A stretch of 64,000 nucleotides of DNA, from the NCBI GenBank assembly GCA_902619485.1, contig CACNEF010000001.1, positions 310,001 through 374,000 of the forward strand, written 5' to 3'. Made by a program: the position numbers and the translations under genes. Below, in pieces: positions 21,684 to 61,090 of the stretch. The stretch's first letter is position 1. The number at the start of each line of letters is the position of its first letter. The notes below the pieces were generated by a model. It made no database searches, had not been told where the DNA came from, and saw only the letters and a list, made by a program, of their open reading frames with translations. The stretch comes from an uncultured SAR116 cluster alpha proteobacterium (GTDB taxonomy: Bacteria; Pseudomonadota; Alphaproteobacteria; Puniceispirillales; Marisalimonadaceae).

Positions 21684-23471
21684 ATGAAAAATTTAAATAA
21701 ATTAATAATTTTACTTACACCAAAGGAAATGAAATTATCGTTCCTACTACTATTTTTAATGATCATTACGGCTTTGCTGGAAACTTTTGGCGTAGCATCT
21801 ATCATGCCCTTCATTGCTGTGCTAACAAACCCTGATTTTATTGAAACCAATTATTTACTTAAAAACTTTTATGGACAAGCTAAGAAATATGGAATTATTG
21901 GACAAAAAGATTTTCTAATATTGCTTGGTGGATTAGTGTTGTTTTTACTAGTTTCTTCATTATCTATTAAGGCTTTAACCACTTATTTACTGCTTCATTT
22001 TGTTAGAATGCGTGAGTATTCAATTGGAAAACGTTTGGTAGAAAGTTACCTACAACAACCATACAGTTGGTTTTTAAATAGAAATAGTTCTGATTTAGGT
22101 AAATCTATTCTTTCAGAAGTTGCTACAATAATAGATAATGGTTTAGCTCCTGTAATGAACCTTCTAGCACAAAGTGCCGTGGCAATTGCATTACTCTCAT
22201 TGTTAATTTTTATTGATATGAAAATTGCAATAATCGTAGGAGTTGTAATTATTTCAGCCTATATAATTATCCACAGACTTACTAGAAATTTCATGACACG
22301 TATTGGTCAAGAACGTCTAAAAGCAAATGAAGCGCGTTTTAAATCAGTGAGCGAAGCCTTTGGCGCAGTTAAAGAAATTAAAATTGGAGGATTAGAAAAA
22401 CCTTATGTAAACAGGTTTACAACACCTTCAAAAATTTATGCAAAAAGTATTGCTGCATCAAGGGTTGTAGCGGAACTTCCACGCCTTGCTATTGAAGCTA
22501 TATCCTTTGGAGGACTATTAATTTTAATATTATTCCTAATGCATAAAAATGAAACTTTTATAGATATTTTACCTATTATTGCACTTTATGCTTTTGCAGG
22601 CTATCGTCTATTACCAGCACTACAACAGATCTATCATTCGATTTCTATTCTTCGCTTTGTTGGCCCCACATTGGATGCGATGACTAATGATCTCCTTAGT
22701 TTAGAAATATATAACAAAAATAACGATAAAAAAAAGTTAACATTAAATGAAAATATAATATTGGATAACGTTTCGTATCATTATCCACAGACATCTAGAA
22801 CAGCACTTCAAAACATAAATATAAATATTCCAGCAAGATCAATTGTTGGATTTGTTGGTCCTACAGGAAGTGGTAAAACTACTATAATTGATTTAATCCT
22901 AGGCCTATTAAAACCACAAAAGGGATCCGTCAGAGTCGATGGAAGATTGATTGATAATAAATCAGTTAGGAGTTGGCAAAACTCAATTGGGTATGTGCCC
23001 CAAAATATTTACTTGGCAGACGATTCCATCACCGCTAATATTGCTCTTGGCATTAAACAAAAGGATATTAGTCATCAAGCAATTATTGAAGCAGCTAAAA
23101 TAGCAAATATTCATGATTTTGTAGTTAATGAATTGCCTGAAAAATATCAAACTAATGTTGGTGAACGTGGTGTTAGATTGTCTGGTGGACAACGCCAACG
23201 TATTGGAATTGCAAGAGCAATATATAATAAACCTAAGGTTTTAATTTTGGACGAAGCAACTAGTGCTTTGGATAATTTAACTGAAAGTGAGGTGATGAAA
23301 GCGATTCGAAATCTTGGTAAAGATCTGACAATTATTTTAATCACGCATCGTCTAAGCACTGTAAAAGATTGTGACACTATATTTTTACTTGAAAAAGGAA
23401 AAATTACCGCACAAGGTAATTTTAACAAACTAATCTTAAAAAGCAAAAAGTTTAAAGAAATGAGCAAATAA
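21684..23471 (+). CDS. ABC exporter, PglK-like lipid-linked oligosaccharide flippase
   Basis: A 595-residue half-transporter with six hydrophobic segments in residues 1-330 and an ABC domain after about 360. The Walker A motif GPTGSGKT is at 392-399, the signature LSGGQRQRIGIARA near 499 and Walker B VLILDEATSALD near 520. It most resembles the PglK/WlaB group that flips undecaprenyl-diphosphate-linked glycans, although MsbA-like lipid export is an alternative. Its position directly before a glycan-building cluster supports the flippase reading. No Wzx-type flippase was found in the visible part of the locus. Confidence 0.75.
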   Translation: MKNLNKLIILLTPKEMKLSFLLLFLMIITALLETFGVASIMPFIAVLTNPDFIETNYLLKNFYGQAKKYGIIGQKDFLILLGGLVLFLLVSSLSIKALTTYLLLHFVRMREYSIGKRLVESYLQQPYSWFLNRNSSDLGKSILSEVATIIDNGLAPVMNLLAQSAVAIALLSLLIFIDMKIAIIVGVVIISAYIIIHRLTRNFMTRIGQERLKANEARFKSVSEAFGAVKEIKIGGLEKPYVNRFTTPSKIYAKSIAASRVVAELPRLAIEAISFGGLLILILFLMHKNETFIDILPIIALYAFAGYRLLPALQQIYHSISILRFVGPTLDAMTNDLLSLEIYNKNNDKKKLTLNENIILDNVSYHYPQTSRTALQNININIPARSIVGFVGPTGSGKTTIIDLILGLLKPQKGSVRVDGRLIDNKSVRSWQNSIGYVPQNIYLADDSITANIALGIKQKDISHQAIIEAAKIANIHDFVVNELPEKYQTNVGERGVRLSGGQRQRIGIARAIYNKPKVLILDEATSALDNLTESEVMKAIRNLGKDLTIILITHRLSTVKDCDTIFLLEKGKITAQGNFNKLILKSKKFKEMSK

Positions 23472-23587: not shown

Positions 23588-24577
23588 ATGTTAACTAATT
23601 CATCTATTCTGATTACTGGAGGTACAGGTTCTTTCGGTCAATCATTTGTGCCACTTACATTAAAAAAATACAATCCTAGACGCCTGGTAATACTATCTCG
23701 TGACGAAATGAAACAATGGGAAATGTCAAAAAAATACACTGATGACCCAAGAGTTAGATTTTTCATTGGGGATGTAAGAGAAAAGGAACGTTTGTATAGA
23801 GCATTGCACGGGATAGATTATGTGGTACACGCTGCTGCAACTAAAATTGTTACAACTGCAGAATATAATCCTTTTGAATGTATAAAAACAAATGTTATTG
23901 GTGCAATGAATTTAATTAATGCCTGTATTGATCAAGGTGTAAAACGTGTAGTTGCTCTTTCTACAGACAAAGCTAGTAGTCCTATCAACTTATATGGTGC
24001 TTCTAAATTAGCTTCAGACAAGCTTTTTGTATCTAGCAATTCTTCATATGCGGGAGGCCATAAAACAATTTTTTCAATTGTTAGGTATGGCAATGTAATG
24101 GGTTCACGTGGTTCAATTATACCTTTTTTTATGTCTTTAAAACATAAAGGTGAGCTACCTATAACAGATCCTAGAATGACACGTTTTATGATAACTCTGG
24201 ACCAAGGTGTTGATTTAGTATGGAAAGCTTTTGATGATATGATTGGTGGTGAAATATACGTTAAGAAAATCCCATCAATGAAAATTACTGACATCGCTAG
24301 AGTAATTGCTCCTAAGGCTAAATTTAAAATAATTGGCATGATGCCTGGAGAAAAAATTCATGAACAAATGATTAGCGCTGAAGATTCTTTTACAACCTTT
24401 GAATATGAGAGTTATTACAAAATTTTACCACAACTTAATGGTTGGTCTTATGATAATAATAGAGTGAAAAATGGAACGAAAGTAACTGAAGGTTTTGTAT
24501 ATTCAAGTGATAACAATACTGAGTGGCTAAAGAAAAAATCCTTAGAAACTTGGATTAAAAGCAACTATGAAAAATAA
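23588..24577 (+). CDS. pseB: UDP-N-acetylglucosamine 4,6-dehydratase (inverting), PseB-like
   Basis: A 329-residue extended SDR. The NAD-binding motif [12 protein letters not shown] is at 8-19, [16 protein letters not shown] follows near 31-46, and the catalytic [17 protein letters not shown] lies near 120. The SRDE and STDKA patterns are typical of PseB/FlaA1 enzymes that make UDP-4-keto-6-deoxy-L-AltNAc or similar from UDP-GlcNAc. The dedicated partners PseC, PseG and PseH are not recognisable nearby. The product may therefore go to another 2-acetamido-2,6-dideoxyhexose, or the route may be completed elsewhere. It overlaps the next gene by 11 bp. Confidence 0.85.
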
Positions 24578-25664
24578 ATTTTTAGATAACCCTATAAAGT
24601 TTTTTATAACTGGAGGGTCTGGATTTATTGGCTCAGCTTTAATACGTTACATAATTGACCACACAAAAAATCATGTATTAAATTATGACAAATTAACCTA
24701 CGCAGGTAACACCGAGAATTTGGCAAGCATTTCCAAAAATAAACAATATAAATTTTATTGTGGAGATATAAATGACCAACTCACAATGTCTAAGCTTTTA
24801 TCTGAATATAAACCAGACATATTTATGAATTTAGCAGCGGAGACGCATGTTGATCGTTCAATAGACAAACCATCTGATTTTATAAAGACCAATATAGTTG
24901 GAACATCAAAAATGTTGGAATGTGTACAACATTATTGGAAAAATCTTGGGAAAAATGAGAATTTTTTATTTCACCACATTTCGACTGACGAAGTGTATGG
25001 TAGCCTTGAAAATAACAAAAAATTCACAGAAAAAGATCCATATGATCCTAGCTCTCCTTATTCTGCAAGCAAAGCAAGCTCTGATCATTTAGTTCGTGCA
25101 TGGCATCGTACTTATGGGTTACCAGTTATTGTCACAAATTGTTCAAATAATTATGGCCCGTATCAGTATCCAGAAAAATTAATTCCCCTTGTAATTTTGA
25201 ACGCGTTGGAAGGTAAAGAATTGCCAGTTTATGGAAATGGTCAAAACATTAGGGACTGGCTTTACGTGGAAGACCACGTAAAATTATTGTATAAAATTGT
25301 ACTTAAAGGTATAATTGGGGAAACCTACAACATAGGTGGACAAAGTGAAAAATCGAATATTGAAGTAGTTAATACAATTTGTGAAACTTTGGATAATTTA
25401 AAACTTGAAAATGTTAAAATCTTTAAAAGGTCTAAATATAAAGGATCATTTAAAAATCTAATTACCTTTGTTTCTGATAGACCTGGTCATGATTTTAGGT
25501 ATGCGGTTGATATAAAAAAAGTAAGAGAAGAATTTAATTGGCAACCACATGTAACATTTGAAGAAGGAATTTTAAAAACCATTAACTGGTATGTAAGCAA
25601 TCTTGATTGGTGCAAAAACATTCAAAAAAGATTCAATAAGTTCCATAGATTAGGTAGTTTGTAA
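24567..25664 (+). CDS. rfbB: dTDP-glucose 4,6-dehydratase
   Basis: A 365-residue extended SDR converting dTDP-glucose to dTDP-4-keto-6-deoxyglucose. The NAD motif [14 protein letters not shown] is near 15, [10 protein letters not shown] follows, the catalytic triad region [10 protein letters not shown] is near 132, and the [15 protein letters not shown] helix carries the active Tyr and Lys. NNYGPYQ and [15 protein letters not shown] complete the RmlB pattern. It is followed two bases later by rfbA and then by a VioA-like aminotransferase. The trio should make dTDP-4-amino-4,6-dideoxyglucose; no rmlC or rmlD partner for rhamnose lies beside it. Confidence 0.93.
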
Positions 25665-25666
25665 AA

Positions 25667-26548
25667 ATGAGAGGTATAGTTTTAGCTGGTGGATTTGGTA
25701 AGAGAATGTACCCTGTTACAATTGGAGTGTCTAAACAATTATTACCGGTTTATGATAAACCTATGATTTATTATCCGTTATCAGTACTTATGCTAGCAGG
25801 GATTAGAGAAATTCTTATTATTTCATCTCCTTCAGATTTACCAGCTATTCAGAGACTTTTGGGTAATGGAAGCCAATTTGGAATTGACTTGAAGTTCGAA
25901 ACTCAATGTAGTCCTGATGGAATAGCTCAAGCTTTTATCATAGGAGAAAAATTTATAAACAATGACGATGTTTGTTTAATTCTTGGCGATAATATATTTT
26001 TTGGTAATAATTTTGCACCAATTTTAAAAAACTTGTCACAAGATCCTAACGGAGCGACTATATTTGGATATCAGGTAAAAGATCCTTGTCGTTTTGGGAT
26101 TGTTGAGTTTGACAAAAAAGGAAACGTAATATCTTTAGAAGAAAAACCAGCTAATCCAAAAAGTAATTGTGCGATAACTGGTTTATACTTTTATGACAAA
26201 AATGTTGTTGAAATTGCTAAATCAATCAAACCATCTAATCGTGGTGAATTAGAAATAACCTCTATAAACGAGATTTATATGAACGAAAAAAGATTAAAAG
26301 TTGAAATTCTTGGACGTGGTTTTGCATGGTTAGATGCAGGAACTTTTCGATCTTTACTAGATGCATCGTTTTTTATAGAGACAATAGAAAATCGCCAAGG
26401 TTACAAAATAGCTTGTTTAGAAGAGATTGCTTATAACCAAGAATGGATTTCAAAAATTCAAGTTGAAAACGCCGCAGAAAAATTTAAACAAACTTCTTAC
26501 GGCTCTTATCTATTTTCTTTGATAAGTGAAAAAAATGAAAAAATCTGA
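25667..26548 (+). CDS. rfbA: glucose-1-phosphate thymidylyltransferase
   Basis: A 293-residue nucleotidyltransferase. The pyrophosphorylase signature LAGGFGKRMYPVT is at 6-18, with KQLLPVYDKPMIYYPLSVLM immediately after. ILGDNIFFG near 106 and EEKPANPKSN near 160 complete the RmlA pattern. It makes dTDP-glucose, the substrate of the preceding dehydratase. The reading frame overlaps the start of the aminotransferase gene that follows, indicating a single transcript. Confidence 0.94.
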   Translation: MRGIVLAGGFGKRMYPVTIGVSKQLLPVYDKPMIYYPLSVLMLAGIREILIISSPSDLPAIQRLLGNGSQFGIDLKFETQCSPDGIAQAFIIGEKFINNDDVCLILGDNIFFGNNFAPILKNLSQDPNGATIFGYQVKDPCRFGIVEFDKKGNVISLEEKPANPKSNCAITGLYFYDKNVVEIAKSIKPSNRGELEITSINEIYMNEKRLKVEILGRGFAWLDAGTFRSLLDASFFIETIENRQGYKIACLEEIAYNQEWISKIQVENAAEKFKQTSYGSYLFSLISEKNEKI

Positions 26549-27641
26549 AATTTTTGTTACACAACCAAGTCTTCCATCAATTGAAGATTTATTTAATCTC
26601 CTTGGTAAGACATGGGAAAGTAAAGTTTTAACTAATAATGGTCCTTTTCATTATGAACTTGAGAATGAATTGTGTAAATATTTGGAAGTTCCATATATTT
26701 CTTTAGTTTCAAATGCTACAATCGGACTTGTTCTTGCTCTTAAAGCTCTTGATATCAGTGGTGAAGTAATAACAACTCCTTATTCTTTTTTGGCAAGTGC
26801 TAATTCTTTGCTCTGGAACCAGAACAAACCAGTTTTTGTAGATATCGATCCATACTCATTGAACATTGACCCAAAAAAGATTGAACCAGCTATTACAAAA
26901 AAAACAAGTGCAATAATGCCAGTACACGTTTATGGGCACCCGTGCAATGTAGATGCTATTGATGCAATCGCTAAAAAACATAATCTCAAAGTGGTATATG
27001 ATGCCGCACATGCGTTTGGTGTAAAATGTCATTGTGGTAGCTTGTTGACACACGGTGATTTATCTGTACTAAGTTTTCATGCAACTAAAGTTTTTAACAC
27101 TTTTGAGGGAGGCGCAATCATCGTCAATGACGAGGATACTAAAAGCCGTATTGATCATTTAAAAAACTTTGGATTAAATGGAGAAACCTCTGCTGATATT
27201 ATAGGCATTAATGGAAAAATGAGTGAATTTAACTCTGCTTTAGGTTTACTCCAACTTAAAAAAATAGATACCTATATACAAAAAAGAAAAAATATAGATG
27301 AAACTTATAGAAAATACATAAAAGATATTCCAGGTATTAATTGTCACTTAAAACCAAATTCCATAAAGCATAATTATAATTACTTTCCAGTTTTTATTGA
27401 AAACACATATCCTTTATCCCGTGATCAACTTTATATAAAACTAAAAAAAGGGGGAGTAAACGCACGACGCTATTTTTATCCCCTAATTACTGATTTTTCA
27501 GCTTATCAAAATACAGAAAAAATCTTTTGTTATGACATACCGATTGCAAAAAATGTTGCTGAAAAAATTTTATGCCTTCCTATTTATCCCGATTTGAGTT
27601 TTGAAAAAATCAAAATAATAATTAATATCTTAAGACATTAG
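26535..27641 (+). CDS. vioA: DegT/DnrJ/EryC1 sugar aminotransferase, VioA-like
   Basis: A 368-residue PLP-dependent sugar aminotransferase. VTQPSLPS is at the N-terminus, SNATIGLVLALKAL lies near 57, and the PLP lysine is in LSFHATKVFNTFEGGAII. That last motif is close to VioA and related enzymes, which convert dTDP-4-keto-6-deoxyglucose to dTDP-4-amino-4,6-dideoxyglucose (viosamine). With rfbA and rfbB immediately upstream, this is the best reading. The 4-amino-galactose epimer (FdtB-like) cannot be excluded. The ATG at 26535 is chosen over the GTG at 26526; the overlap with rfbA is 14 bp. Confidence 0.82.
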   Translation: MKKSEIFVTQPSLPSIEDLFNLLGKTWESKVLTNNGPFHYELENELCKYLEVPYISLVSNATIGLVLALKALDISGEVITTPYSFLASANSLLWNQNKPVFVDIDPYSLNIDPKKIEPAITKKTSAIMPVHVYGHPCNVDAIDAIAKKHNLKVVYDAAHAFGVKCHCGSLLTHGDLSVLSFHATKVFNTFEGGAIIVNDEDTKSRIDHLKNFGLNGETSADIIGINGKMSEFNSALGLLQLKKIDTYIQKRKNIDETYRKYIKDIPGINCHLKPNSIKHNYNYFPVFIENTYPLSRDQLYIKLKKGGVNARRYFYPLITDFSAYQNTEKIFCYDIPIAKNVAEKILCLPIYPDLSFEKIKIIINILRH

Positions 27642-27650
27642 AGTTTCAAA

Positions 27651-28340
27651 ATGAAAATTGCAATAATGCAACCTTATTTTTTACCTTATATTGGATATTG
27701 GCAATTGATCGGTGCTGTAGATACATTTGTGATTTTCGATGATGTTAACTTTAGAAAAAAAAGCTACATTTATCGCAACTATATATTATCTAATGGTGTA
27801 TCAAGTCAAATAAATTTAGAATTACTTGGAGCAAGCCAAAACAAATTGATTAACGAAATAGAAATAAGTTTTAATTTTGACAAACTTATAAAAACTATTT
27901 ATCACAATTATAATAAATCCCCTTTTTTCGACGAAGTTTTTCCTGTTATACGAAATTTTTTATTTTATAAGGAAAAAAATCTTTCAAAATTCCTTGGATA
28001 TTCACTACTAAACCTTTCAAAATACTTGGAAATTAATACAAATTTTGTTTATTCAAGTGATATTGATAAAGATGATAATAACAAAGGACAAAAAAAAATT
28101 ATTGATATTTGTAAAATACTGAATGCTACAAATTATTTAAATCCGATTAACGGAATAAATCTTTATAGTAAAGAAAAATTTAGTGAAAATGATATAAAGC
28201 TAAATTTTCTCGAAACCAAATCTTTTAAATATAATCAATTTAAAAACAAATTTGTTCCATATCTTTCAATAATCGATATTTTAATGTTTAATGATAAACA
28301 AGAGATTAGAAAATTACTCCAAAATTATAAACTGAAATGA
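27651..28340 (+). CDS. WbqC-like family protein
   Basis: A 229-residue protein of the WbqC family. It is recognised by the start KIAIMQPYFLPYIGYWQLI followed by FVIFDDVNFRKKSYIYRN. The family is frequent in O-antigen and capsule loci, especially beside sugar aminotransferases. It is suspected to modify amino sugars, but no reaction is firmly known to me. It lies nine bases after the VioA-like gene and before a PglD-like acyltransferase, so attachment of a group to the 4-amino sugar is a fair hypothesis. Confidence 0.75.
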   Translation: MKIAIMQPYFLPYIGYWQLIGAVDTFVIFDDVNFRKKSYIYRNYILSNGVSSQINLELLGASQNKLINEIEISFNFDKLIKTIYHNYNKSPFFDEVFPVIRNFLFYKEKNLSKFLGYSLLNLSKYLEINTNFVYSSDIDKDDNNKGQKKIIDICKILNATNYLNPINGINLYSKEKFSENDIKLNFLETKSFKYNQFKNKFVPYLSIIDILMFNDKQEIRKLLQNYKLK

Positions 28341-28350
28341 AAGAAAAAAA

Positions 28351-29016
28351 TTGGAAAAACTTATAATATATGGAAATGGCAAGATATCTAGAGTACTTTA
28401 TCATTTTCTAAAAAAACAGTTTAAATTGATTGCATTTACAGTTGATTCTAAATATATCAAAAAAAAAGATATATATGGATTACCTGTAATCCCCTTTGAA
28501 AATATTGAGAACACATATGATCCAAGTGTCAATAATTTGATAATTGCAGTTGGTTATATTGATATGAATAATTTAAGAGAACAAAAATATTTGGAAGGGA
28601 AACAAAAAGGCTTCAATTTTATAAACTATATTCATCCTTCAGTTGAAATTCACGATAATTTTCAAATTGGAGAAAATAACGTTCTTTTAGATCAAGTCTC
28701 TATTCAGCCTTACTCAAAAATTGGAAATAGTAATTTTATATGGAGCAACGCAGTCTTGGGCCATGGTGCATGTATTGAAAATTCAAATTGGATAGCTTCC
28801 AATGCAACAGTTTCTGGTGACACTACAATAAAGTCAAAATGTTTTATTGGAGTAAATTCAACAATCGGACATAATGTTGTCGTAGGAGATGAAAACTTTA
28901 TAGGCGCTCATACTTTAGTAACAAAGAATACAAAAAGTAACGAAGTTTATATTTCAAAAGAAGGAGATAAATTCAGACTTGATAGCAAAAGATTTCTTCT
29001 ATTTGCAAAGGTGTAA
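28351..29016 (+). CDS. PglD/NeuD-like sugar O/N-acyltransferase
   Basis: A 221-residue two-domain acyltransferase. A Rossmann-like N-terminal part begins LIIYGNGKISRVLYHF, and left-handed beta-helix hexapeptide repeats run from about residue 90 (IHPSVEIHDN, VLGHGACIEN, STIGHNVVVG). His in the GHGA segment is the likely catalytic base. Members acetylate amino sugars or sialic acids using acyl-CoA. The apparent start is TTG at 28351, since no ATG lies in frame before the Rossmann strand. It may act on the VioA product or another sugar of this locus. Confidence 0.8.
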   Translation: MEKLIIYGNGKISRVLYHFLKKQFKLIAFTVDSKYIKKKDIYGLPVIPFENIENTYDPSVNNLIIAVGYIDMNNLREQKYLEGKQKGFNFINYIHPSVEIHDNFQIGENNVLLDQVSIQPYSKIGNSNFIWSNAVLGHGACIENSNWIASNATVSGDTTIKSKCFIGVNSTIGHNVVVGDENFIGAHTLVTKNTKSNEVYISKEGDKFRLDSKRFLLFAKV

Positions 29017-38203: not shown

Positions 38204-39085
38204 ATGATAGTTAATAAAAAAATTGTTATAGGTACTGCAAATTTTGGAATGTCATATGGATTAAATAATCCTAATGGTAAAATAAATTCATCTAAGATCC
38301 TCTCAATATTAGATTATTATAAATCAACAGACTTAGAATTAATTGACACAGCTATTTCATATGGCAATAGTGAAGAAGTTTTGGGTAAAGTTGGAGTTGA
38401 AAATTTTAAAATAATTACAAAGTTACCTCAAATACCTCGAAAATGTAAAAACGTAGAAAAATGGATAATGGACCAAATTCTGACTTCTTTAAAAAGATTA
38501 AATATTAAATCACTTTATGGTTTGTTATTGCATCATCCTGAAGATTTAAATGGACCATTTAGTCATATTATTTTAAAGACATTATATGATTTAAAATCAA
38601 ATGGATTAATTCTAAAACTTGGTGTTTCTCTTTACTATCCAAAACAGTTGAAATTTATAATTCCACAAATGAAGTTGAATATTGTTCAATTTCCATTAAA
38701 TGTAATTGATCAACGATTTGAAGTAACTGGCTGTCTTTCTGATCTTCATAAAATGGGAGTTGAGCTTCATGCACGATCTGCATTTCTTCAAGGACTTCTT
38801 CTTATGGAAAGAAATTTAATTCCAGTAAAATTTAAAAAGTGGACAAAAATTTGGGATAAATGGAGCAATGAATTAAAGATAAAAAAATTAACACCATTGG
38901 AAGCTTGCTTATCTTACCCTTTATCTTTAACTAATGTTGATAATGTTATAGTTGGGATAAATGATTTAAGACAATTAAAAGAAATAGTTAGAGCATCACA
39001 ATTAAAAAACTTTGATAGCGATTGGTCATTAATGTCCTCAAATGATGAAATGTTAATTAATCCATCTAATTGGAAATTTCTATGA
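38204..39085 (+). CDS. aldo/keto reductase family protein
   Basis: A 293-residue AKR-fold protein. It begins VIGTANFGMSYGLNNPNGK, with LIDTAISYGNSEEVLG near 46 (Asp and Tyr of the active site), KTDGL-like LLHHPEDL near 108, and LGVSLYYPKQL near 140. In nonulosonate-type loci such proteins accompany SpsF-type cytidylyltransferases. The following gene starts inside its stop codon (ATGA), so they are co-translated. The reaction is probably on a sugar or sugar-acid ketone, but it is not defined. Confidence 0.8.
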   Translation: MIVNKKIVIGTANFGMSYGLNNPNGKINSSKILSILDYYKSTDLELIDTAISYGNSEEVLGKVGVENFKIITKLPQIPRKCKNVEKWIMDQILTSLKRLNIKSLYGLLLHHPEDLNGPFSHIILKTLYDLKSNGLILKLGVSLYYPKQLKFIIPQMKLNIVQFPLNVIDQRFEVTGCLSDLHKMGVELHARSAFLQGLLLMERNLIPVKFKKWTKIWDKWSNELKIKKLTPLEACLSYPLSLTNVDNVIVGINDLRQLKEIVRASQLKNFDSDWSLMSSNDEMLINPSNWKFL

Positions 39086-41109
39086 ATATAATTGCTATTA
39101 TACAAGCAAGATTAGGCTCAACCAGACTTCCAAACAAAGTTATGAAGTTAATAAATGGGACGCCAATGATCGAGCTTTTATTAAAAAGGTTGTCCAAATC
39201 TAAACTGATTAACAAAATTGTTGTAGCTACATCTCACGACAATAAAAATCAAGAATTGGTAAATTATATTCAAAAATTAAATTTTCCTTGTGAGCTGGGA
39301 AGTGAAGATGATGTATTAGATCGTTATCTTAAAGTAGCTAAAAAACATCAGGCTGATTTAATAGTTCGTGTAACAGGCGATTGCCCTCTTATCGATCCTT
39401 TTCTTGTTGACGAAATTATTATCAATTTTAAATCAAGAAATGTTGACTATCTGAGTAACACCCTTTTTCCAACTTACCCTGACGGTTTAGATATAGAAGT
39501 TTTCACAATCACCTCTTTAGAAGAAGCAAGTAAAAAAACTCAAGAAAAATTCAATCGTGAACACGTAACACCTTTTATTAAAAATTCAAATTCATTTAGA
39601 GTTTATAACTATGAAAATGAAGAAAATTTAAGTAATTTGCGATGGACAGTTGATGAACCTGAGGATTTTGAGGTTATTTCTAATGTATTTGAATATTTTT
39701 CACCAAATATCTATTTTCCTTGGAAAGAAGTACTTGCACTCAATAAAAGAAAACCTCTATTATTTGCAGCAAATTCAAAAATCAATCGTAATGAAGGATC
39801 TATAGTGGGCAAAGGTCAAAAACTTTGGAAAAGAGCCAAGCGTGTAATCCCAGGAGGTAACATGTTGTTATCGAAACGTGCTGAAATGTTTTTGCCAAAT
39901 TACTGGCCTGCGTATTTTAGTAAAGCAAAAGGTTGTAATGTTTGGGATCTTGATGGAAAAAAATACATTGATATGTCTATAATGGGAATAGGAACCAACA
40001 TTCTTGGTTATGGACATCCTGAAGTTGATGAAAAGGTACATCAAGCCATTAAATTTGGAAATATGAGCACCTTGAATTGTCCTGAGGAAGTTGAACTTGC
40101 GGAAAAATTGGTAGAAATGCATCAATGGGCTGATAGTGTGCGTTTTGCTAGGAGTGGAGGTGAAGCCAACGCTATTGCTATTAGAATTGCAAGAGCTGCA
40201 TCAGGCCGTGATAATATTGCAATTTGTGGGTACCATGGATGGCACGACTGGTACCTTTCAGCCAATTTAGGTGATAATAAAAATCTAGACGGTCATTTAT
40301 TGCCAGGATTAAATCCAAATGGAGTGCCACGTAATTTAAGAGGAACAGTTTTTCCTTTTAATTATAATAATTTTGATGAATTGGAGAATTTAGTTAAGCA
40401 AAACGATATTGGTGTAATTAAAATGGAAGTAGCTAGAAACACTGAACCCGAAAATAATTTTTTACAAAAAGTAAGGCAATTATGCGATAATAAGAATATT
40501 GTTTTGGCTTTTGATGAGTGCACGTCAGGATTTCGTGAAACATTTGGTGGACTCCACAAAAAGTATAATGTTGAACCAGATATAGCTATGTTTGGCAAAG
40601 CTTTAGGTAATGGTTATGCAATAACAGCTATTGTTGGCAAACTAGAAATCATGGATGCTGCCCAGTCCAGTTTTATTAGCAGTACATTTTGGACAGAAAG
40701 GATTGGACCAACTGCTGCTTTAAAAACACTCGAAGTTATGGAAAGAGAAAAGTCTTGGCAAATAATAACTAATAAAGGATTGGAAATTAGAAACCGCTGG
40801 GAAAAACTTTCCAAAAAATACGAATTACAAATAAATACCTGGGGTTTGCCAGCACTAACAGGTTTTACTTTCAAAAGCAAAAATGCTTTAGCATATAAAA
40901 CATTAATTTCACAAGAAATGTTAGCTAAGGGATTTTTGGCTTCAAATAGTGTTTATGTTTGCACAGAACATTCTCAAGAGGTTTTAGATGAATATTTTGA
41001 AATTCTTGATCCTATTTTTAAAGTTATAAAAGAATGTGAGATAGGCAGAAATATTGAAGGTCTACTGAATGGACCAGTTTGTCATAACGGATTTAAAAGA
41101 TTTAACTAA
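39082..41109 (+). CDS. fusion: SpsF-like cytidylyltransferase + class III aminotransferase
   Basis: A 675-residue two-domain protein. Residues 1-240 form a CMP-sugar-type nucleotidyltransferase with IIAIIQARLGSTRLPNKV at the start, VTGDCPLIDP near 96 and TVDEPEDFEVI near 192. Residues 250-675 resemble glutamate-1-semialdehyde aminomutase-like class III aminotransferases: VIPGGNMLLSKR, RSGGEANAIAIRIARAA, AFDECTSGFR, and the PLP lysine in MFGKALGNGYA. The ATG at 39082 (ATGA overlap with the previous stop) is preferred over a TTG at 39070. It probably aminates and activates a sugar acid made with the NeuB-like synthase downstream. Confidence 0.83.
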   Translation: MNIIAIIQARLGSTRLPNKVMKLINGTPMIELLLKRLSKSKLINKIVVATSHDNKNQELVNYIQKLNFPCELGSEDDVLDRYLKVAKKHQADLIVRVTGDCPLIDPFLVDEIIINFKSRNVDYLSNTLFPTYPDGLDIEVFTITSLEEASKKTQEKFNREHVTPFIKNSNSFRVYNYENEENLSNLRWTVDEPEDFEVISNVFEYFSPNIYFPWKEVLALNKRKPLLFAANSKINRNEGSIVGKGQKLWKRAKRVIPGGNMLLSKRAEMFLPNYWPAYFSKAKGCNVWDLDGKKYIDMSIMGIGTNILGYGHPEVDEKVHQAIKFGNMSTLNCPEEVELAEKLVEMHQWADSVRFARSGGEANAIAIRIARAASGRDNIAICGYHGWHDWYLSANLGDNKNLDGHLLPGLNPNGVPRNLRGTVFPFNYNNFDELENLVKQNDIGVIKMEVARNTEPENNFLQKVRQLCDNKNIVLAFDECTSGFRETFGGLHKKYNVEPDIAMFGKALGNGYAITAIVGKLEIMDAAQSSFISSTFWTERIGPTAALKTLEVMEREKSWQIITNKGLEIRNRWEKLSKKYELQINTWGLPALTGFTFKSKNALAYKTLISQEMLAKGFLASNSVYVCTEHSQEVLDEYFEILDPIFKVIKECEIGRNIEGLLNGPVCHNGFKRFN

Positions 41110-41157
41110 TGATTAATACAACAAGAGATTTTCTATTAAAAATACTGGATAATAACA

Positions 41158-42030
41158 TTGTTTAAAAACATTATCATACTTGGAGGCACTGGCCTTTTAG
41201 GAACTAAACTTCTATCTGGTAAGTACTTAAAAGATTATAATATCATATGCTTAGGGCGCAAATCGTCAGTTTGCCAACAAGTTGATTTTATGAACAAACA
41301 TGAAATTGCTACATTAATAAAACAAATTAAACCTGCTGCTATAATAAATTTAATTGCTCTTACCGACGTGGATCACTGTGAGAAATTTCCTAACGAAGCG
41401 TTCAAGATCAATGTGAAAATATTAGAAATTATAGTAGAAATTATTAAAAGCATGACTGAGACTCCTTTTTTAGTACATATCTCAACTGACCAAGTTTATG
41501 ACGGGAATGGTCCATTTTCTGAAAAAGAGATTAATTTAAATAATTATTATGCTTTTTCAAAATATTGTAGTGAATTAATTGCATCTAAAACTAATAGTAT
41601 CGTTTTAAGGACAAACTTTTTTGGAAAAAGTCAAACACCAAAGCGTCGTAGTTTTAGTGATTGGTTGTATCAAAATCTTATAGAAGGAAAAGATTTTAAA
41701 GTTTTTGAAGATGTTAAATTTAGCCCAATTTCAATGGATAGATTATGTCATTTCATAGCTAATGCTGTAGAGCTCAAAACTGAAGGTATTTACAATATTG
41801 GATCTGAAGATGGCGTTAGCAAAGCAGATTTTGCATTTTATTTTGCTAATTGTTTAAATCTTAATACAAGTAAAATGAAACGTACAAAAATTTCAGAAGC
41901 CAATTTTTTAAATTGTTATCGACCTAGGGATATGAGGCTTAATCTATCAAAATTTAAAAATAATTTTAATTTTAAATTACTTAGCTTAACTCAAGAAATT
42001 GAATCAGCAATCAAGGAATATGAAATATGA
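41158..42030 (+). CDS. RmlD-like SDR (dTDP-4-dehydrorhamnose reductase family)
   Basis: A 290-residue extended SDR. ILGGTGLLGTKLL is at 7-19, INLIALTDVDHCEKFP near 61, the catalytic HISTDQVYDG near 105 and NNYYAFSKYCSELIA near 124. The pattern is that of RmlD/SpsK-like reductases. The start appears to be TTG at 41158, with no in-frame ATG before the Rossmann motif. It is co-translated with the NeuB gene (ATGA overlap), so it may reduce a nonulosonate precursor rather than make rhamnose. Confidence 0.78.
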   Translation: MFKNIIILGGTGLLGTKLLSGKYLKDYNIICLGRKSSVCQQVDFMNKHEIATLIKQIKPAAIINLIALTDVDHCEKFPNEAFKINVKILEIIVEIIKSMTETPFLVHISTDQVYDGNGPFSEKEINLNNYYAFSKYCSELIASKTNSIVLRTNFFGKSQTPKRRSFSDWLYQNLIEGKDFKVFEDVKFSPISMDRLCHFIANAVELKTEGIYNIGSEDGVSKADFAFYFANCLNLNTSKMKRTKISEANFLNCYRPRDMRLNLSKFKNNFNFKLLSLTQEIESAIKEYEI

Positions 42031-43100
42031 CTAAAGCAGATATAATAATTGAAAATAAAAAAATAGATTTGGATAGCCCAACATATTTTATTGCTGACAT
42101 TGCAGCAAATCATGATGGGGACATTCAAAAAGCAAAAGAATTAATTTATTTAGCAGCAGATGCTGGAGCTGATGCTGCTAAATTTCAACATTTTCAAGCT
42201 GAGACAATCGTAAGTGACTTTGGATTCAAGTCAATTAATGGGTTAAAATCTCATCAAGAAAAATGGAAAAAATCAGTTTTTGAAGTTTATAAAGATGCAA
42301 GTGTGAATTTAGAATGGACCCAAGAAATTGTTGAGACATGTAAAAAAGCTAAGATTACATTTTTTACGACTCCATATAGTAAAGATTTGGTAGATTACAT
42401 TGATCCTTTTGTGCCAGCATACAAAATTGGATCAGGTGACATAACATGGATAACTATAATAGAATACATAGCATCAAAAAATAAGCCATATATCATCGCA
42501 AGTGGCGCTTCAACTTTTGACGACGTCCAACGTGCTGTAAGCGCAGGTTTGGCTATCAATCCTAATGTTTGTTTAATGCAGTGTAATACTAATTATACCG
42601 CAGATTTAGAAAACTTTAAATTTATTCAGTTAAATGTTCTTAAGGCTTATAAAGAAATGTATCCTAATATTTTACTTGGCCTTAGTGATCATACTCCAGG
42701 TCACGCTACAGTTTTGGGTGCAGTTACTCTTGGTGCTAGGGTAATTGAAAAACATTTTACTGACGATATAACAAGAGAAGGACCAGATCATAAATTTTCT
42801 ATGGATCCAATAAACTGGAGAGATATGGTAGATAGAACAAGAGAATTAGAAAATGCACTCGGTCAAGGTAATAAAAAAGTAGAGAATAATGAAAAAGAAA
42901 CTTATATTTTGCAAAGGAGATCAATTCGATTATCTAGAGATAAATATTCAGGAAGTGAAATTAAGGAAGAAGATTTGGAATTTCTTAGACCTTGTCCAGC
43001 TGATGGACTTCCTCCCTACGAAATTAAGAATATCATTGGTAAAAGACTTTTAATTGATAAGAAATATGGTGAGCATCTTAGATGGATAGATCTAAAGTAG
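42027..43100 (+). CDS. NeuB-family sialic-acid-like synthase
   Basis: A 357-residue PEP-condensing enzyme. YFIADIAANHDGDIQKAKEL is near 21-40, GADAAKFQHFQAETIV follows, YKIGSGDITW lies near 131 and LGLSDHTPGHATVLGAVTLG near 213. The C-terminal antifreeze-like SAF domain is RPCPADGLPPYEI. It should condense phosphoenolpyruvate with an aldose. The ADIAANHDGD form differs from the AEIGxNHxG of classical NeuB/PseI, pointing to a distinct subgroup. No NeuC, PseG or LegG hydrolase is recognised nearby. It overlaps the next gene by 19 bp. Confidence 0.86.
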   Translation: MTKADIIIENKKIDLDSPTYFIADIAANHDGDIQKAKELIYLAADAGADAAKFQHFQAETIVSDFGFKSINGLKSHQEKWKKSVFEVYKDASVNLEWTQEIVETCKKAKITFFTTPYSKDLVDYIDPFVPAYKIGSGDITWITIIEYIASKNKPYIIASGASTFDDVQRAVSAGLAINPNVCLMQCNTNYTADLENFKFIQLNVLKAYKEMYPNILLGLSDHTPGHATVLGAVTLGARVIEKHFTDDITREGPDHKFSMDPINWRDMVDRTRELENALGQGNKKVENNEKETYILQRRSIRLSRDKYSGSEIKEEDLEFLRPCPADGLPPYEIKNIIGKRLLIDKKYGEHLRWIDLK

Positions 43101-43750
43101 CTATTGTCATACCCGCTTTTAACGAAGAACTTACCATATCAAAAATAGTTAAAGTAGCAAGTATTTATGGAGAAGTTATTGTTGTTGACGATTGTTCTAG
43201 TGATCTAACAGGTAAAAAAGCAAAAAATGCTGGCGCGAGTGTAGTTACTCATAACTTAAATTTGGGTTATGATTCTGCACTAAATACTGGTTTTAAAAAA
43301 GCAGCCGAAAACAAATGCGATTTTATAATTACTTTAGATGCTGATGGACAACATAGGCCCGAATTATTAGTAAAATTTATTGATTTATTGTACAAAGGGA
43401 CACCAATGGTATTGGGAGTAAGAAATTCAAAAGCAAGGATTGGAGAACATATTTTTTCATTTTATACAAAACATTTTTATGGAGTGTTAGATCCTCTGTG
43501 CGGGTTAAAAGGTTTTCGACGTAAAGACTATGAAGAAGTAGGACATTTTGATTCTTATAATTCAATTGGAACAGAATTGATGCTAAGAAATATTAATTCT
43601 AACTTGTCTTTTAAACAAGTTTTTTTTCAAGTTAAAGCTAGAACTGATAAATCTAGATTAGGCAATTCAATTATTGTTAATATTAGAATTTTTCGTTCTC
43701 TAATTATATGGTTACTAAAAAAAAATAAAGGTAAATATAATTTCAAATAA
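43082..43750 (+). CDS. glycosyltransferase family 2 (dolichyl-phosphate-mannose-synthase-like)
   Basis: A 222-residue GT-A glycosyltransferase. VAIVIPAFNEELTI is at the start, EVIVVDDCSSDLTGKKA near 31, GYDSALNTGFKKA near 63 and TLDADGQHRPE near 85. This is the DPM1-like group that often loads polyprenyl phosphate or acts early in glycan assembly. No membrane segments are present. It overlaps neuB at its start and the following gene at its end. Confidence 0.82.
   Translation: MDRSKVAIVIPAFNEELTISKIVKVASIYGEVIVVDDCSSDLTGKKAKNAGASVVTHNLNLGYDSALNTGFKKAAENKCDFIITLDADGQHRPELLVKFIDLLYKGTPMVLGVRNSKARIGEHIFSFYTKHFYGVLDPLCGLKGFRRKDYEEVGHFDSYNSIGTELMLRNINSNLSFKQVFFQVKARTDKSRLGNSIIVNIRIFRSLIIWLLKKNKGKYNFK
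43727..43731 (+). promoter_or_regulatory. Shine-Dalgarno AAAGG deciding an ATT start
   Basis: AAAGG ends eight bases before ATT at 43740. The downstream frame is open and encodes sensible protein from that codon, 66 codons before the first in-frame ATG. Confidence 0.55.
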
Positions 43751-57427: not shown

Positions 57428-58570
57428 ATGAGCCAATACGACGTCATCTACCTACAAAGATTCATTCCTTCTTACAGAGTTTCTCTTTTTAAAAGACTAA
57501 CAATTAATAATAAAAATAAATCCGTTGTAATTTATGGCAACAATGTCCAAAATTCGAAGGTAAAAAATTCAGAAAATTTAAAAAACGTTGAAGTAAAAAA
57601 ATTAAAAATGATTAGCTTTTCTATCTTTGGAAGGATGTTATATTATCAGTTTGGGCTATTATCTTATTTTAAACATAACTCTCCTAAAATAATCGTCTGT
57701 GAAGCAGAAAGTCACTTTCTTGGATACATTATAGCTATATTTTACAAAGTTTTTTATAACCACAAAACAAAATTAATCTTGTGGTGTTTTTATCGACTAC
57801 CTGGTAATTCAAAAGAAAGAACTATTTTTCATTACCTAATAAAAAAAATAATAAGATTTTTCTTCAGCGGTTTTATTAGTTACTCAACTTTTGGGAAAAA
57901 TTTTCTTATTTCTGAGGGGGAGAACTATAAAAATATAGCCGTTGCTGTAAATGTTTGTGATACAGATTACTTTTTAAATATAGTTAATAAACTAGAACTA
58001 AATAAAATTGATGCAAAATCCCTAATAAACCAAAATAAGAAATTTATTATTTCTTATGTAGGCTCTTTGGAAAAATCAAAAAAACCAGACTTAATTCTTA
58101 ATATTGCTTCTCAGCTAGATCCAAATAAATTTCATTTTAATATTATTGGCAAAGGTTCTTTATTTTTAGATATTAAAAAAAAAATAAAAAGTAAAAATAT
58201 TAATAATGTTGACATTCATGGTTACATCGGAGAAAAATTGCCAATTTACTATCGTGCTTCAGACTTAATAATTATTCCTGGGAGAGGCGGAATTGTAATT
58301 TCGGAAGCCATGTGTTTTGGTACACCTGTTATTGTTCATCAAGCTGATGGTGTGGAACATGACCTAATTAATAATAATGTTACAGGTTTTATTGTATCAA
58401 AAGGTTCTACAAATGATTTTTGTGAGGTAATAAGACATGTTAGTGAAAATAAATCTGCTTTAGAGAAAATTTCTTTTAATGCTAAAAAATTGATCTATAA
58501 CTTTTTTAATTCAAAAACAATGGCTAATAAAATAAATAAATTCATTGATGGATATATGAAAAATGAATAA
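57428..58570 (+). CDS. glycosyltransferase family 4
   Basis: A 380-residue GT-B glycosyltransferase. The N-terminal VIYLQRFIPSYRVSLFKRL is followed by a hydrophobic basic patch near 100-150, which suggests membrane association. The donor domain begins IISYVGSLEKSKKPDL, and the signature is GRGGIVISEAMCFGTPVIVH near 285 with the E-x7-E-like glutamate. It is followed with an 8-bp overlap by the amidotransferase gene. Confidence 0.84.
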   Translation: MSQYDVIYLQRFIPSYRVSLFKRLTINNKNKSVVIYGNNVQNSKVKNSENLKNVEVKKLKMISFSIFGRMLYYQFGLLSYFKHNSPKIIVCEAESHFLGYIIAIFYKVFYNHKTKLILWCFYRLPGNSKERTIFHYLIKKIIRFFFSGFISYSTFGKNFLISEGENYKNIAVAVNVCDTDYFLNIVNKLELNKIDAKSLINQNKKFIISYVGSLEKSKKPDLILNIASQLDPNKFHFNIIGKGSLFLDIKKKIKSKNINNVDIHGYIGEKLPIYYRASDLIIIPGRGGIVISEAMCFGTPVIVHQADGVEHDLINNNVTGFIVSKGSTNDFCEVIRHVSENKSALEKISFNAKKLIYNFFNSKTMANKINKFIDGYMKNE

Positions 58571-59702
58571 ACACGATAAACTTAGAGTGTGTAATAGATG
58601 CGTAATGGATACTTCAGATTCGAAAATTATTTTTGATAAGGAGGGAAATTGCGATCATTGTAATGTTTTTTTTAATAACATCCAACCTAAATGGAAAAGT
58701 AATATTGCAAACTCTAATAATATTCTAAAATTAATTGAAAAGATAAAGAAATCTCAAAAGAATGCTGACTTTGATTGCATAGTTGGAATGAGTGGCGGCA
58801 TAGATAGCAGTTATCTTCTTCATTTAATTTCAGAATACGGTCTACGCCCATTAGTCTTTCATGTTGATGGTGGTTGGAACTCACAGGAAGCAGTTAATAA
58901 CATAGAAAAACTTGTGGATAGGCTTGATTTAGATCTCTATACAGAAGTTATTGATTGGAGTGAAATGCGTGATCTTCAACTAGCTTTTTTTAAGTCCAGT
59001 GTTCCTCATATTGACACACCACAAGACCATGCTTTCTTTGCAACAATGTATAAATTTGCGGAACTTCATAATGTAAAATATATTCTAACTGGCGCAAATT
59101 ATTCTACTGAATGCATTCGAAATCCAATTGAATGGATGTATTATCAATCAGACTCAATTCAACTGAAAAATATACATCAGAAATTTGGTAAAATTTCTCT
59201 AAAAAAGTTTCCAACTACATCTATTTTTAGACACAAAATTTGGCTCCCATATTTTAGAGGAATTAAAGTTGTTTGCCCTCTCAATTATGTCAATTACAAT
59301 AAAGAAGATGCGATAAATTTATTAATCAAAAAATATGGTTGGCAACCATATCCACAAAAACATTTTGAATCTCGCTTTACACGTTTTTATGAAGGATTTT
59401 GGCTGCCCAAAAAATTTGGTTTTGACACAAGAAAAGTACAATTTTCAAGCTTAATTTTAACAGGTCAAATGACCCGAAAAGATGCTGTTGAAAAATTAAA
59501 AATCCCTGCTTTGGATGAAGTTACTATTAAAAGAGAATTTGATTTTATAGCGGACAAACTTCAGATATCTATAAATGAATTACAAAATTATTTAGATCTT
59601 CCAAATAAATCTTATAAAGATTACAAATCTCAAGAATTCTTTTATAATACTGGTGCATTTGTGTTGAAAACATTAGGTTTAGAATTGGGGGGGAAACGTT
59701 GA
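58563..59702 (+). CDS. N-acetyl sugar amidotransferase (PseA/WbpG/LgaA-like)
   Basis: A 379-residue ATP-pyrophosphatase-type amidotransferase. A likely zinc site is formed by CNRC (10-13) and CDHC (30-33). The ATP loop is VGMSGGIDSSYLLHL near 72-86, and LTGANYSTE is further along. It belongs to the family that adds ammonia to an N-acetyl group, giving an acetamidino sugar, as in P. aeruginosa WbpG or flagellar PseA. The next two genes are HisH and HisF paralogues, which supply the ammonia. Confidence 0.9.
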   Translation: MNKHDKLRVCNRCVMDTSDSKIIFDKEGNCDHCNVFFNNIQPKWKSNIANSNNILKLIEKIKKSQKNADFDCIVGMSGGIDSSYLLHLISEYGLRPLVFHVDGGWNSQEAVNNIEKLVDRLDLDLYTEVIDWSEMRDLQLAFFKSSVPHIDTPQDHAFFATMYKFAELHNVKYILTGANYSTECIRNPIEWMYYQSDSIQLKNIHQKFGKISLKKFPTTSIFRHKIWLPYFRGIKVVCPLNYVNYNKEDAINLLIKKYGWQPYPQKHFESRFTRFYEGFWLPKKFGFDTRKVQFSSLILTGQMTRKDAVEKLKIPALDEVTIKREFDFIADKLQISINELQNYLDLPNKSYKDYKSQEFFYNTGAFVLKTLGLELGGKR

Positions 59703-60313
59703 TAACCTTGATTGATTACGGTCTAGGAAATATTAAAGCTTTCGAAAATATTTATAAAAGACTAAGTGTTCCTGTAAAAATTGCAAAAAAAAAAAATGAG
59801 TTACTTGATTCCAGTCACTTAATTTTACCAGGGGTTGGTTCTTTTGATTGGGCAATGAAGCGTCTATGCAATTCAGGGATGATAGACGAACTTAATCGTT
59901 TAGTTTTAGAAGAGAAACGTCCAATTTTAGGTATTTGTGTTGGAATGCAAATGATGGCTAAAAGTAGTAAAGAAGGTAAAATGCCTGGACTTGGATGGCT
60001 AAATGGACATGTAAATTTATTTAGTGATAAAATTAGTAATAAAGATTTGCAACTACCTCATATGGGTTGGAATGAAGTCATACCAAATGATACTACCGAT
60101 TTATTTTCTGGTTTAGAAAGTTCTGCTCGTTTTTATTTTTTACATTCTTACTATTTTTCACCAAATAAAAACACTAATATCTTAGCAAAAAGTTTTTATG
60201 GTATAAATTTTACATGCGCAGTCAAATATGAAAATATCTTTGGTGTTCAATTTCATCCCGAGAAAAGTCATGAATGGGGAGTTAAGCTTTTGAAGAACTT
60301 CAGTGTGGTATAA
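59699..60313 (+). CDS. HisH-like glutamine amidotransferase of sugar amidation
   Basis: A 204-residue class I glutaminase. LIDYGLGNIKAF is at the start, the nucleophile lies in LGICVGMQMM (Cys80), and the His-Glu pair is in FGVQFHPEKS near 187. It begins at TTG, overlapping the amidotransferase stop (TTGA). The neighbourhood points to ammonia delivery for sugar amidination rather than histidine synthesis. It should form a complex with the adjacent HisF-like protein. Confidence 0.9.
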   Translation: MITLIDYGLGNIKAFENIYKRLSVPVKIAKKKNELLDSSHLILPGVGSFDWAMKRLCNSGMIDELNRLVLEEKRPILGICVGMQMMAKSSKEGKMPGLGWLNGHVNLFSDKISNKDLQLPHMGWNEVIPNDTTDLFSGLESSARFYFLHSYYFSPNKNTNILAKSFYGINFTCAVKYENIFGVQFHPEKSHEWGVKLLKNFSVV

Positions 60314-61090
60314 GTGTTACATCCTAGACTGATTCCTTGCTTATTAATTCATAAGGGTGGACTTTATAAAACTGAAAATTTCAAAAACCCTAAATATGTA
60401 GGAGACCCATTAAATGCAGTTCGAATTTTTAACGAAAAAGAGGTTGATGAGTTAATGGTTATAGACATTGATGCTAGTACCAATAATATGTCGCCAGACT
60501 ATAATTTAATTTCAACAATTGCAAAAGAATGTAGGATGCCTCTTTGTTATGGTGGTGGTGTAAAGAAAATTGAACAATTTGAGAAAATTATCCGCTTAGG
60601 TGTTGAAAAGGTCGCAATTTCTTCTGCTGCTATTGATAATCCGAATTTAGTAAGCCAAGCAGCGTCTCGTATAGGAAGCCAAAGTGTTGCAGTAGTGATT
60701 GATGTTAAAAGGACTGGCTTTCTAGGTAAACTAGAAGTAGTGTATTTGAATGGTAAAAAGCATTCTGGTTTAAAACCTTCAGATTGGGCTAAAAAATTGC
60801 AATTGCTTGGCGCAGGTGATATTATTTTAAATTCTGTTGATTTTGATGGTAAAATGCAAGGTTATGATTTTGAATTGATCGATACTGTACGTTCAAAAAT
60901 AACTACCCCTTTAACAGTATTAGGAGGTGCAGGATCATTAGAGGATATAAAAAAATTAATTAATCGTTATGGAATTATAGGAGCGTCAGCAGGCAGCCTT
61001 TTTGTTTTTAAAGGAAAATACAAGGCTGTGCTTATCAGTTATCCTAGCAGAAAAGACAAAAATAAAATCTTTCACAAATTTAAATCATGA
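60314..61090 (+). CDS. HisF-like protein of sugar amidation, catalytic Asp11 lost
   Basis: A 258-residue TIM barrel of the HisF family, starting at GTG directly after the hisH-like stop. RLIPCLLIHKGGLYKT aligns with the HisF start IPCLDVKDG, so the first catalytic aspartate (Asp11) is Leu here. The second (VVIDVKR) is kept, as is the phosphate-binding GGAGS near 212. The loss of Asp11 suggests it no longer makes imidazole glycerol phosphate and serves mainly as an ammonia channel, as in WbpG/PseA systems. Confidence 0.88.
   Translation: MLHPRLIPCLLIHKGGLYKTENFKNPKYVGDPLNAVRIFNEKEVDELMVIDIDASTNNMSPDYNLISTIAKECRMPLCYGGGVKKIEQFEKIIRLGVEKVAISSAAIDNPNLVSQAASRIGSQSVAVVIDVKRTGFLGKLEVVYLNGKKHSGLKPSDWAKKLQLLGAGDIILNSVDFDGKMQGYDFELIDTVRSKITTPLTVLGGAGSLEDIKKLINRYGIIGASAGSLFVFKGKYKAVLISYPSRKDKNKIFHKFKS

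Follow-up and report, generated by a model that had tools for sequence, protein, structure and literature searches.

Introduction

The closest described counterpart of the genes examined here is the pseudaminic acid (Pse) pathway, comprising PseB, PseC, PseH, PseG, PseI and PseF, in which PseB forms a UDP-4-keto sugar whose ketone is aminated by PseC. Enzymes of the RmlD family are known for the reduction of 4-keto sugars, and in Kdo8N biosynthesis transamination is carried out by KdnA after KdnB has acted. We analysed a 64,000-nucleotide stretch (hereafter the window; positions 310,001 to 374,000 of contig CACNEF010000001.1, from an uncultured SAR116 cluster alphaproteobacterium), a surface-polysaccharide island in which an aldo/keto reductase (AKR), a fusion of a cytidylyltransferase (CT) to an aminotransferase (AT), an RmlD-like short-chain dehydrogenase/reductase (SDR) and a NeuB-family synthase, which condenses phosphoenolpyruvate (PEP), are encoded together at 38204-43100. 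The window shares with the Pse pathway a PseB equivalog, a NeuB-family synthase, predicted CMP activation and a CT-AT fusion with close relatives in Pse clusters; it differs in lacking PseC and PseG, in carrying the RmlD-like SDR and in having a NeuB that falls in a different clade and has Asp at the Glu25 position. The most likely product of the cluster is an uncommon sugar resembling sialic acid, a nonulosonic acid (NulO), to which the AKR and the CT-AT fusion probably attach an extra amino group near the tail.

AKR, CT and class III AT genes have been drawn, without an explained role, beside pse genes in the group I flagellin glycosylation islands of Aeromonas (PMC7874193), and are likewise listed beside pse genes, their role unexplained, in the Legionella pneumophila Sg6 O-antigen locus (PMC3694923). 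Those trios lie in full or nearly full Pse clusters, whereas in the window CT and AT are fused and joined to an SDR-NeuB core. In Acinetobacter prophages, EpaA (CT-AKR) and EpaB (SDR) carry out 8-epimerisation of Pse, the change at C8 being seen by nuclear magnetic resonance (PMC12053666). The window has the same CTP_transf_3 and Aldo_ket_red domains, which in Epa act on one NulO; however, EpaA joins CT to AKR and is partnered by a PF13561 SDR, whereas in the window CT is fused to AT and the adjacent SDR is RmlD-like (PF04321). KdnB oxidises C8 of an ulosonic acid in Kdo8N biosynthesis in Shewanella (PMC5125639), but is an iron-containing alcohol dehydrogenase rather than an AKR and acts on an eight-carbon sugar with a primary C8 hydroxyl.

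Two known sugars are also relevant. The O-antigen of Flexibacter maritimus contains an 8-amino-pentadeoxy NulO (PMC3210612); the text of the T. maritimum genome paper holds no O-antigen or NeuB data. Fusaminic acid, found in Fusobacterium O-antigens, is a 3,5,9-trideoxy NulO without a 7-amino group, the kind of structure that PseB, SDR and NeuB would be expected to produce. Its chirality has been assigned only tentatively (PMC10915975), and most of the Fusobacteriaceae genomes examined lack the NeuB clade described below.

Results

The window NeuB belongs to a distinct clade

All four open reading frames lie on the forward strand where a first-pass annotation of the window had placed them, and the ATGA overlaps on which it based their coupling are present at 39082-39085 (AKR and fusion) and 42027-42030 (SDR and neuB). 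That annotation also held the NeuB motif ADIAANHDGD to be unlike the classical form and called for a phylogeny of the subgroup; the motif is present and specific to one clade. The NeuB protein (42027-43100) matches PF03102 with 230 bits against a cut-off of 22, together with a SAF match, but falls below the equivalog cut-offs for PseI (247 bits; cut-off 340) and for N-acetylneuraminic NeuB (257 bits; cut-off 400). Residues Lys53, Gln55, Tyr186, His215, Glu234, His236, Asp247 and Arg314 of Neisseria meningitidis NeuB are all identical in the window protein, whereas Asp24, within the ADIAANHDGD motif, aligns with Glu25 of the meningococcal enzyme.

A scan of GTDB genomes, made with an alignment of five NeuB members, returned at least 569 confirmed relatives, of which the best 80 were kept as a sample; we also searched for NeuB relatives across the window's order. 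At the active-site position of Glu25, 45 of the 47 clade members scored have Asp, whereas all 53 other NeuBs have Glu, so that Asp at this site is a clean marker of the clade. In the NeuB tree the clade forms one group with support of 1.0; its members had been sampled by profile score, and the tree is hence a consistency check. Three loci of the window's genus (L317, L319 and L321) encode proteins of 798-800 amino acids in which a NeuB domain follows an FAD/GlcNAc-like dinucleotide-binding domain, and these fused genes cluster with several SDRs and a distant AKR.

PseB and an RmlD-like reductase accompany this NeuB across phyla

Two further genes correct the picture given by the first-pass annotation. 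One, which it missed, encodes PseB, an inverting UDP-GlcNAc 4,6-dehydratase (23588-24577, forward strand), which lies 15 kb upstream of the remaining genes, scores 509 bits against TIGR03589 (cut-off 408) and is the proposed first enzyme of the pathway. The other, at 43082-43750 on the forward strand, encodes a short GT2 glycosyltransferase (PF00535); it starts within the end of neuB and continues the same gene run. A homologue occurs in 17 of 80 clade loci, directly after NeuB in many proteobacterial ones. The SDR (41158-42030, TTG start) matches PF04321 and scores 128 bits against the rmlD model, under its cut-off of 224.

We then counted neighbours of clade NeuBs that had at least 5 kb of sequence on each side, using profile models with score thresholds set near visible gaps; related loci in these counts are not independent of one another, so that p values computed from them exaggerate the certainty. 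PseB was near 52 of the 56 clade NeuBs and the SDR near 51, as compared with 2 for PseC, 0 for PseG and 3 for NeuC. Among 37 other NeuBs, mostly from the window's order, the corresponding numbers were 3 (PseB), 2 (SDR), 6 (PseC), 6 (PseG) and 12 (NeuC). The core of PseB, RmlD-like reductase and distinct NeuB recurs in Chloroflexota, Proteobacteria, Bacteroidota, Firmicutes and archaea. Given that PseC is absent beside a constant PseB, something must act on the 4-ketone, and because an RmlD-family enzyme sits by PseB and NeuB in its place, we propose that the SDR is the C4 ketone reductase, an activity that would leave a hydroxyl at C7 of the NulO. We rejected the SDR as a partner of the AKR, since 51 of 56 loci have the SDR, whereas of the 54 loci that came from the GTDB scan only 9 have an AKR.

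Two loci bring the distant PseB and the four-gene set together. In L096 the order is an unbroken PseB-AKR-CT:AT-SDR-NeuB-GT2. In L164 it is ABC transporter, PseB, SDR, NeuB, GT2, AKR and fusion, with 55%, 76% and 74% identity to the window for the transporter, PseB and the AT respectively. The window's own MsbA-like ABC transporter (21684-23471, forward strand) adjoins PseB, as its homologue does in L164; a dTDP-amino-sugar block and other sugar genes separate this pair from the AKR. A further AKR-CT:AT-SDR-NeuB arrangement, with an AT 68% identical to that of the window, was found in L148, a contig from a metagenome-assembled genome (MAG) labelled Bifidobacterium breve, a doubtful label.

The AKR and the CT-AT fusion form a separable add-on

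The AKR (38204-39085; PF00248), the proposed C8 oxidoreductase, retains the tetrad Asp48, Tyr53, Lys73 and His110, which is invariant among nine relatives. As the first-pass annotation had stated, the fusion (39082-41109; 675 amino acids from ATG) joins a nucleotidyltransferase to a class III aminotransferase, matching PF02348 and PF00202. Its SpsF-type CT half spans residues ~1-240 (PF02348, 117 bits, residues 8-186) and its AT half residues ~245-675, and the pyridoxal phosphate Lys and Asp are conserved in 62 of 62 aligned aminotransferases. A tetrapyrrole role for this glutamate-1-semialdehyde aminomutase (GSAM)-like half was rejected on the grounds of its HemL equivalog score (191 bits against a cut-off of 527), its distance from HemL in the AT tree, the fusion to CT and the NeuB context.

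A phylum-wide search for the fusion and its gene context recovered pseudaminic clusters containing PseB, PseC, AKR, CT, AT, PseG and PseI, in two of which the AT is 73-74% identical to that of the window and NeuB just 31%. The fusion also shares 56% identity with a protein of Pseudosulfitobacter pSMR1-1, WP_089422657, and there the order pseB-pseC-AKR-..-fusion-pseG-pseI places a fusion alongside PseC and PseG. In this respect the first-pass description was incomplete: ordinary pseudaminic clusters contain close relatives of the fusion, and databases already list such proteins without characterisation, WP_089422657 itself being a RefSeq entry with no assigned function. In the AT tree the window AT groups with ATs from both Pse-type (L032, L033, L322) and SDR-type (L096, L164) clusters, and it should therefore act on a part of the sugar common to both. 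CT-AT fusions occur in several branches of this tree, a distribution suggesting that the two activities are coupled.

Clade NeuB loci commonly have PseB and the RmlD-like SDR and usually lack an AKR or AT; where a GTDB clade locus with flanks has the AKR, a class III or DegT AT is also present (9 of 9). The four genes are thus coupled as first described, but not as a single module: the window combines two evolutionarily separable ones, SDR-NeuB with PseB and the AKR with CT-AT. The AT as a substitute for PseC was rejected, as an AT is missing from most clade loci and Pse clusters contain the two enzymes side by side. A DegT replaces the class III AT in the AKR-CT-AT sets of L118, L152, L169 and L170, an archaeal contig among them. 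These DegT proteins score 191-204 bits against PseC (cut-off 424), compared with 506-556 for true PseCs, and form a distinct subfamily.

Standard NulO pathways are not evident in the genome

The absence of neighbouring hydrolases claimed by the first-pass annotation was borne out, with no NeuC, LegG or PseG gene adjacent to the four-gene set. We also looked for the complete sialic or legionaminic pathway elsewhere that it named as a refutation. The MAG (1.62 Mb, 78% complete) has a single NeuB, PseG was not found in it, and its only strong UDP-GlcNAc 2-epimerase is a WecB-type enzyme, which does not hydrolyse (482 bits to wecB versus 109 to NeuC), and lies beside a UDP-ManNAc dehydrogenase; the one other epimerase hit was weak. 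The one DegT protein tested (26526-27641) scores 230 bits against PseC (cut-off 424), fits DesI better and sits beside RmlA and RmlB.

Discussion

A proposed two-module pathway

These observations of gene content, clade membership, conserved neighbours and intact catalytic residues suggest a pathway in which PseB would act first, yielding a UDP-4-keto sugar, and the RmlD-like SDR would reduce the C4 ketone in place of amination by PseC. A further activity would free the sugar from UDP, for which the neighbouring GT2, some enzyme encoded elsewhere or NeuB itself acting in an unusual way are possible candidates, and NeuB with PEP would then give a 5-acetamido-3,5,9-trideoxy-non-2-ulosonic acid with a 7-hydroxyl, of the fusaminic acid type. 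By Fischer projection, fusaminic (L-glycero-L-gluco) and pseudaminic acid (L-glycero-L-manno) would differ at C4 only, a centre set by NeuB, and both would fit an L-altro hexose. In the add-on, the AKR may oxidise the C8 hydroxyl, the class III AT half of the fusion may aminate the resulting ketone, and the CT half may activate the product to a CMP-8-amino-NulO for surface polysaccharide. We place the amination at C8 because, in Pse, other enzymes already supply the C5 and C7 amines and C9 is a methyl, so that only the C4 and C8 hydroxyls are left, and because a natural 8-amino NulO exists, EpaA/EpaB alter C8 and Kdo8N offers a precedent of C8 oxidation with transamination. In the window's own genus, L085 pairs an AKR with a PF13561 SDR. 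The suggestion in the first-pass annotation of a new amino-ulosonic acid or CMP-sugar is thus largely supported by the genes, which fit a non-standard, CMP-activated and aminated nonulosonate; the product itself, every reaction leading to it, the assignments to C4 and C8, the sequence of the steps and the stereochemistry are predictions.

Several observations weigh against this pathway. No UDP-sugar hydrolase is conserved with the core in clade loci, leaving release from UDP unexplained, and the genome is only 78% complete. In G486 (L081/L108), a genome from the window's order, a clade NeuB occurs with no SDR nearby. Several AKR loci in the window's order lack an AT, many viral AT loci as well as L081/L108 and L322 lack a nearby AKR, and in some clade loci the AT or CT is of another kind. 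The kinship between the window AKR and EpaA is at family level only.

A core working as proposed, with the AKR and AT serving something other than C8 amination, such as C4 amination or an AKR epimer with a separate amino substituent added by the AT, is the alternative we take most seriously, though we judge it unlikely. The C8 assignment draws on precedent and exclusion, no product structure from a trio-bearing cluster was found, and some AKRs in the window's genus stand beside PF13561-type SDRs without an AT, as in L085; yet the same exclusion leaves only the hydroxyls at C4 and C8, and C8 is both the site of the CT-AKR enzyme EpaA (PMC12053666) and that of a known extra amine (PMC3210612). 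We consider it rather improbable that the SDR is an epimerase or a late-acting enzyme, with the free hexose coming from another source: such a role would suit the lack of a UDP-sugar hydrolase with the core, the diversity of RmlD-like enzymes and the SDR's score under the RmlD cut-off, but PseB, which itself works on UDP-sugars, occurs as regularly as the SDR (52 versus 51 of 56), and with PseC absent the 4-ketone must be dealt with by some enzyme.

The two remaining alternatives we regard as quite improbable. Small aldehydes are frequent substrates of GSAM-type aminotransferases and of AKRs, and several further sugar blocks lie in the island; both points would suit a separate pathway in which AKR, CT and AT make a small amino compound, linked to CMP or CDP and unconnected with the nonulosonate. 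Against this, the trio recurs beside NeuB across different backbones and phyla, an SpsF-type CT is the sole candidate CMP-NulO synthetase seen in several Pse-type clusters, and a CT-AKR fusion acts on Pse (PMC12053666). The locus could instead make ordinary Pse, with PseC, PseH and PseG encoded elsewhere or lost from the incomplete MAG and NeuB a divergent PseI, as a true PseB equivalog and a fusion relative within a complete Pse cluster might suggest; however, this NeuB belongs to a separate clade below the PseI cut-off, and across phyla its members have PseG nearby in 0 of 56 cases and PseC in 2 of 56, yet the SDR in 51 of 56.

Collectively, we favour the two-module NulO pathway of a core and a C8-amination add-on, and hold it as a whole tentatively, with somewhat less than even confidence. 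More doubtful, though possible, is the broader proposal of a widespread and unrecognised route from PseB, the SDR and Asp-type NeuB to 7-hydroxy-9-deoxy NulOs that uses neither PseC nor PseG and perhaps frees the sugar from UDP by a novel means, together with C8 oxidation and transamination to CMP-8-amino-NulO, a system also found on phages. Our literature searches, mainly of openly available papers, found no description of the PseB-SDR-NeuB core or of C8 amination by the trio. If correct, the proposal would explain the AKR and class III AT genes in the pseudaminic clusters of Aeromonas and Legionella, provide a candidate route to the 8-amino NulO of Flexibacter maritimus, and define a many-phylum NulO pathway that present gene-based predictions would label sialic or pseudaminic acid; it would also raise the question of how a UDP-sugar is opened without PseG or NeuC.

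The flagellin of A. hydrophila AH-1 carries a NulO-like glycan whose mass, 403 Da, is odd and whose ions differ by 1 m/z from the ions of a Pse derivative (PMC4691044). An extra amine, replacing OH by NH2 and making the number of nitrogens odd, would fit these values, but the formula that the authors propose contains no nitrogen (PMC4691044).

Neighbouring genes and phage carriage

The dTDP-amino-sugar block of the window (24567-29016) encodes RmlB, RmlA, a DesI-like aminotransferase, a WbqC-like protein and a NeuD/VioB-like acetyltransferase. Further downstream, an acetamidino trio (58563-61090) encodes a WbuX-type amidotransferase, HisH and HisF2, followed from G000:C1:374826 onward (L091) by a Gfo/Idh oxidoreductase, WecB and a UDP-ManNAc dehydrogenase. 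In view of these following genes we did not assign the trio to the NulO; together they probably serve an amidinated ManNAcA-type sugar.

The same nonulosonate modules are carried by phages as well. On IMG/VR contigs (L211, L212, L216, L220 and L237-L254) we found CT-AT fusions beside terminase or tail-fibre genes, along with PseB-SDR-NeuB-GNAT sets. When viral sequences were scanned for EpaA with the alignment of AKRs, two distant loci alone came up and no EpaA was recognised. A terminase gene lies close by in L216 and L220, and in L212 an AKR-CT-AT-GNAT-NeuB-PseB set is placed between the terminase and portal genes.

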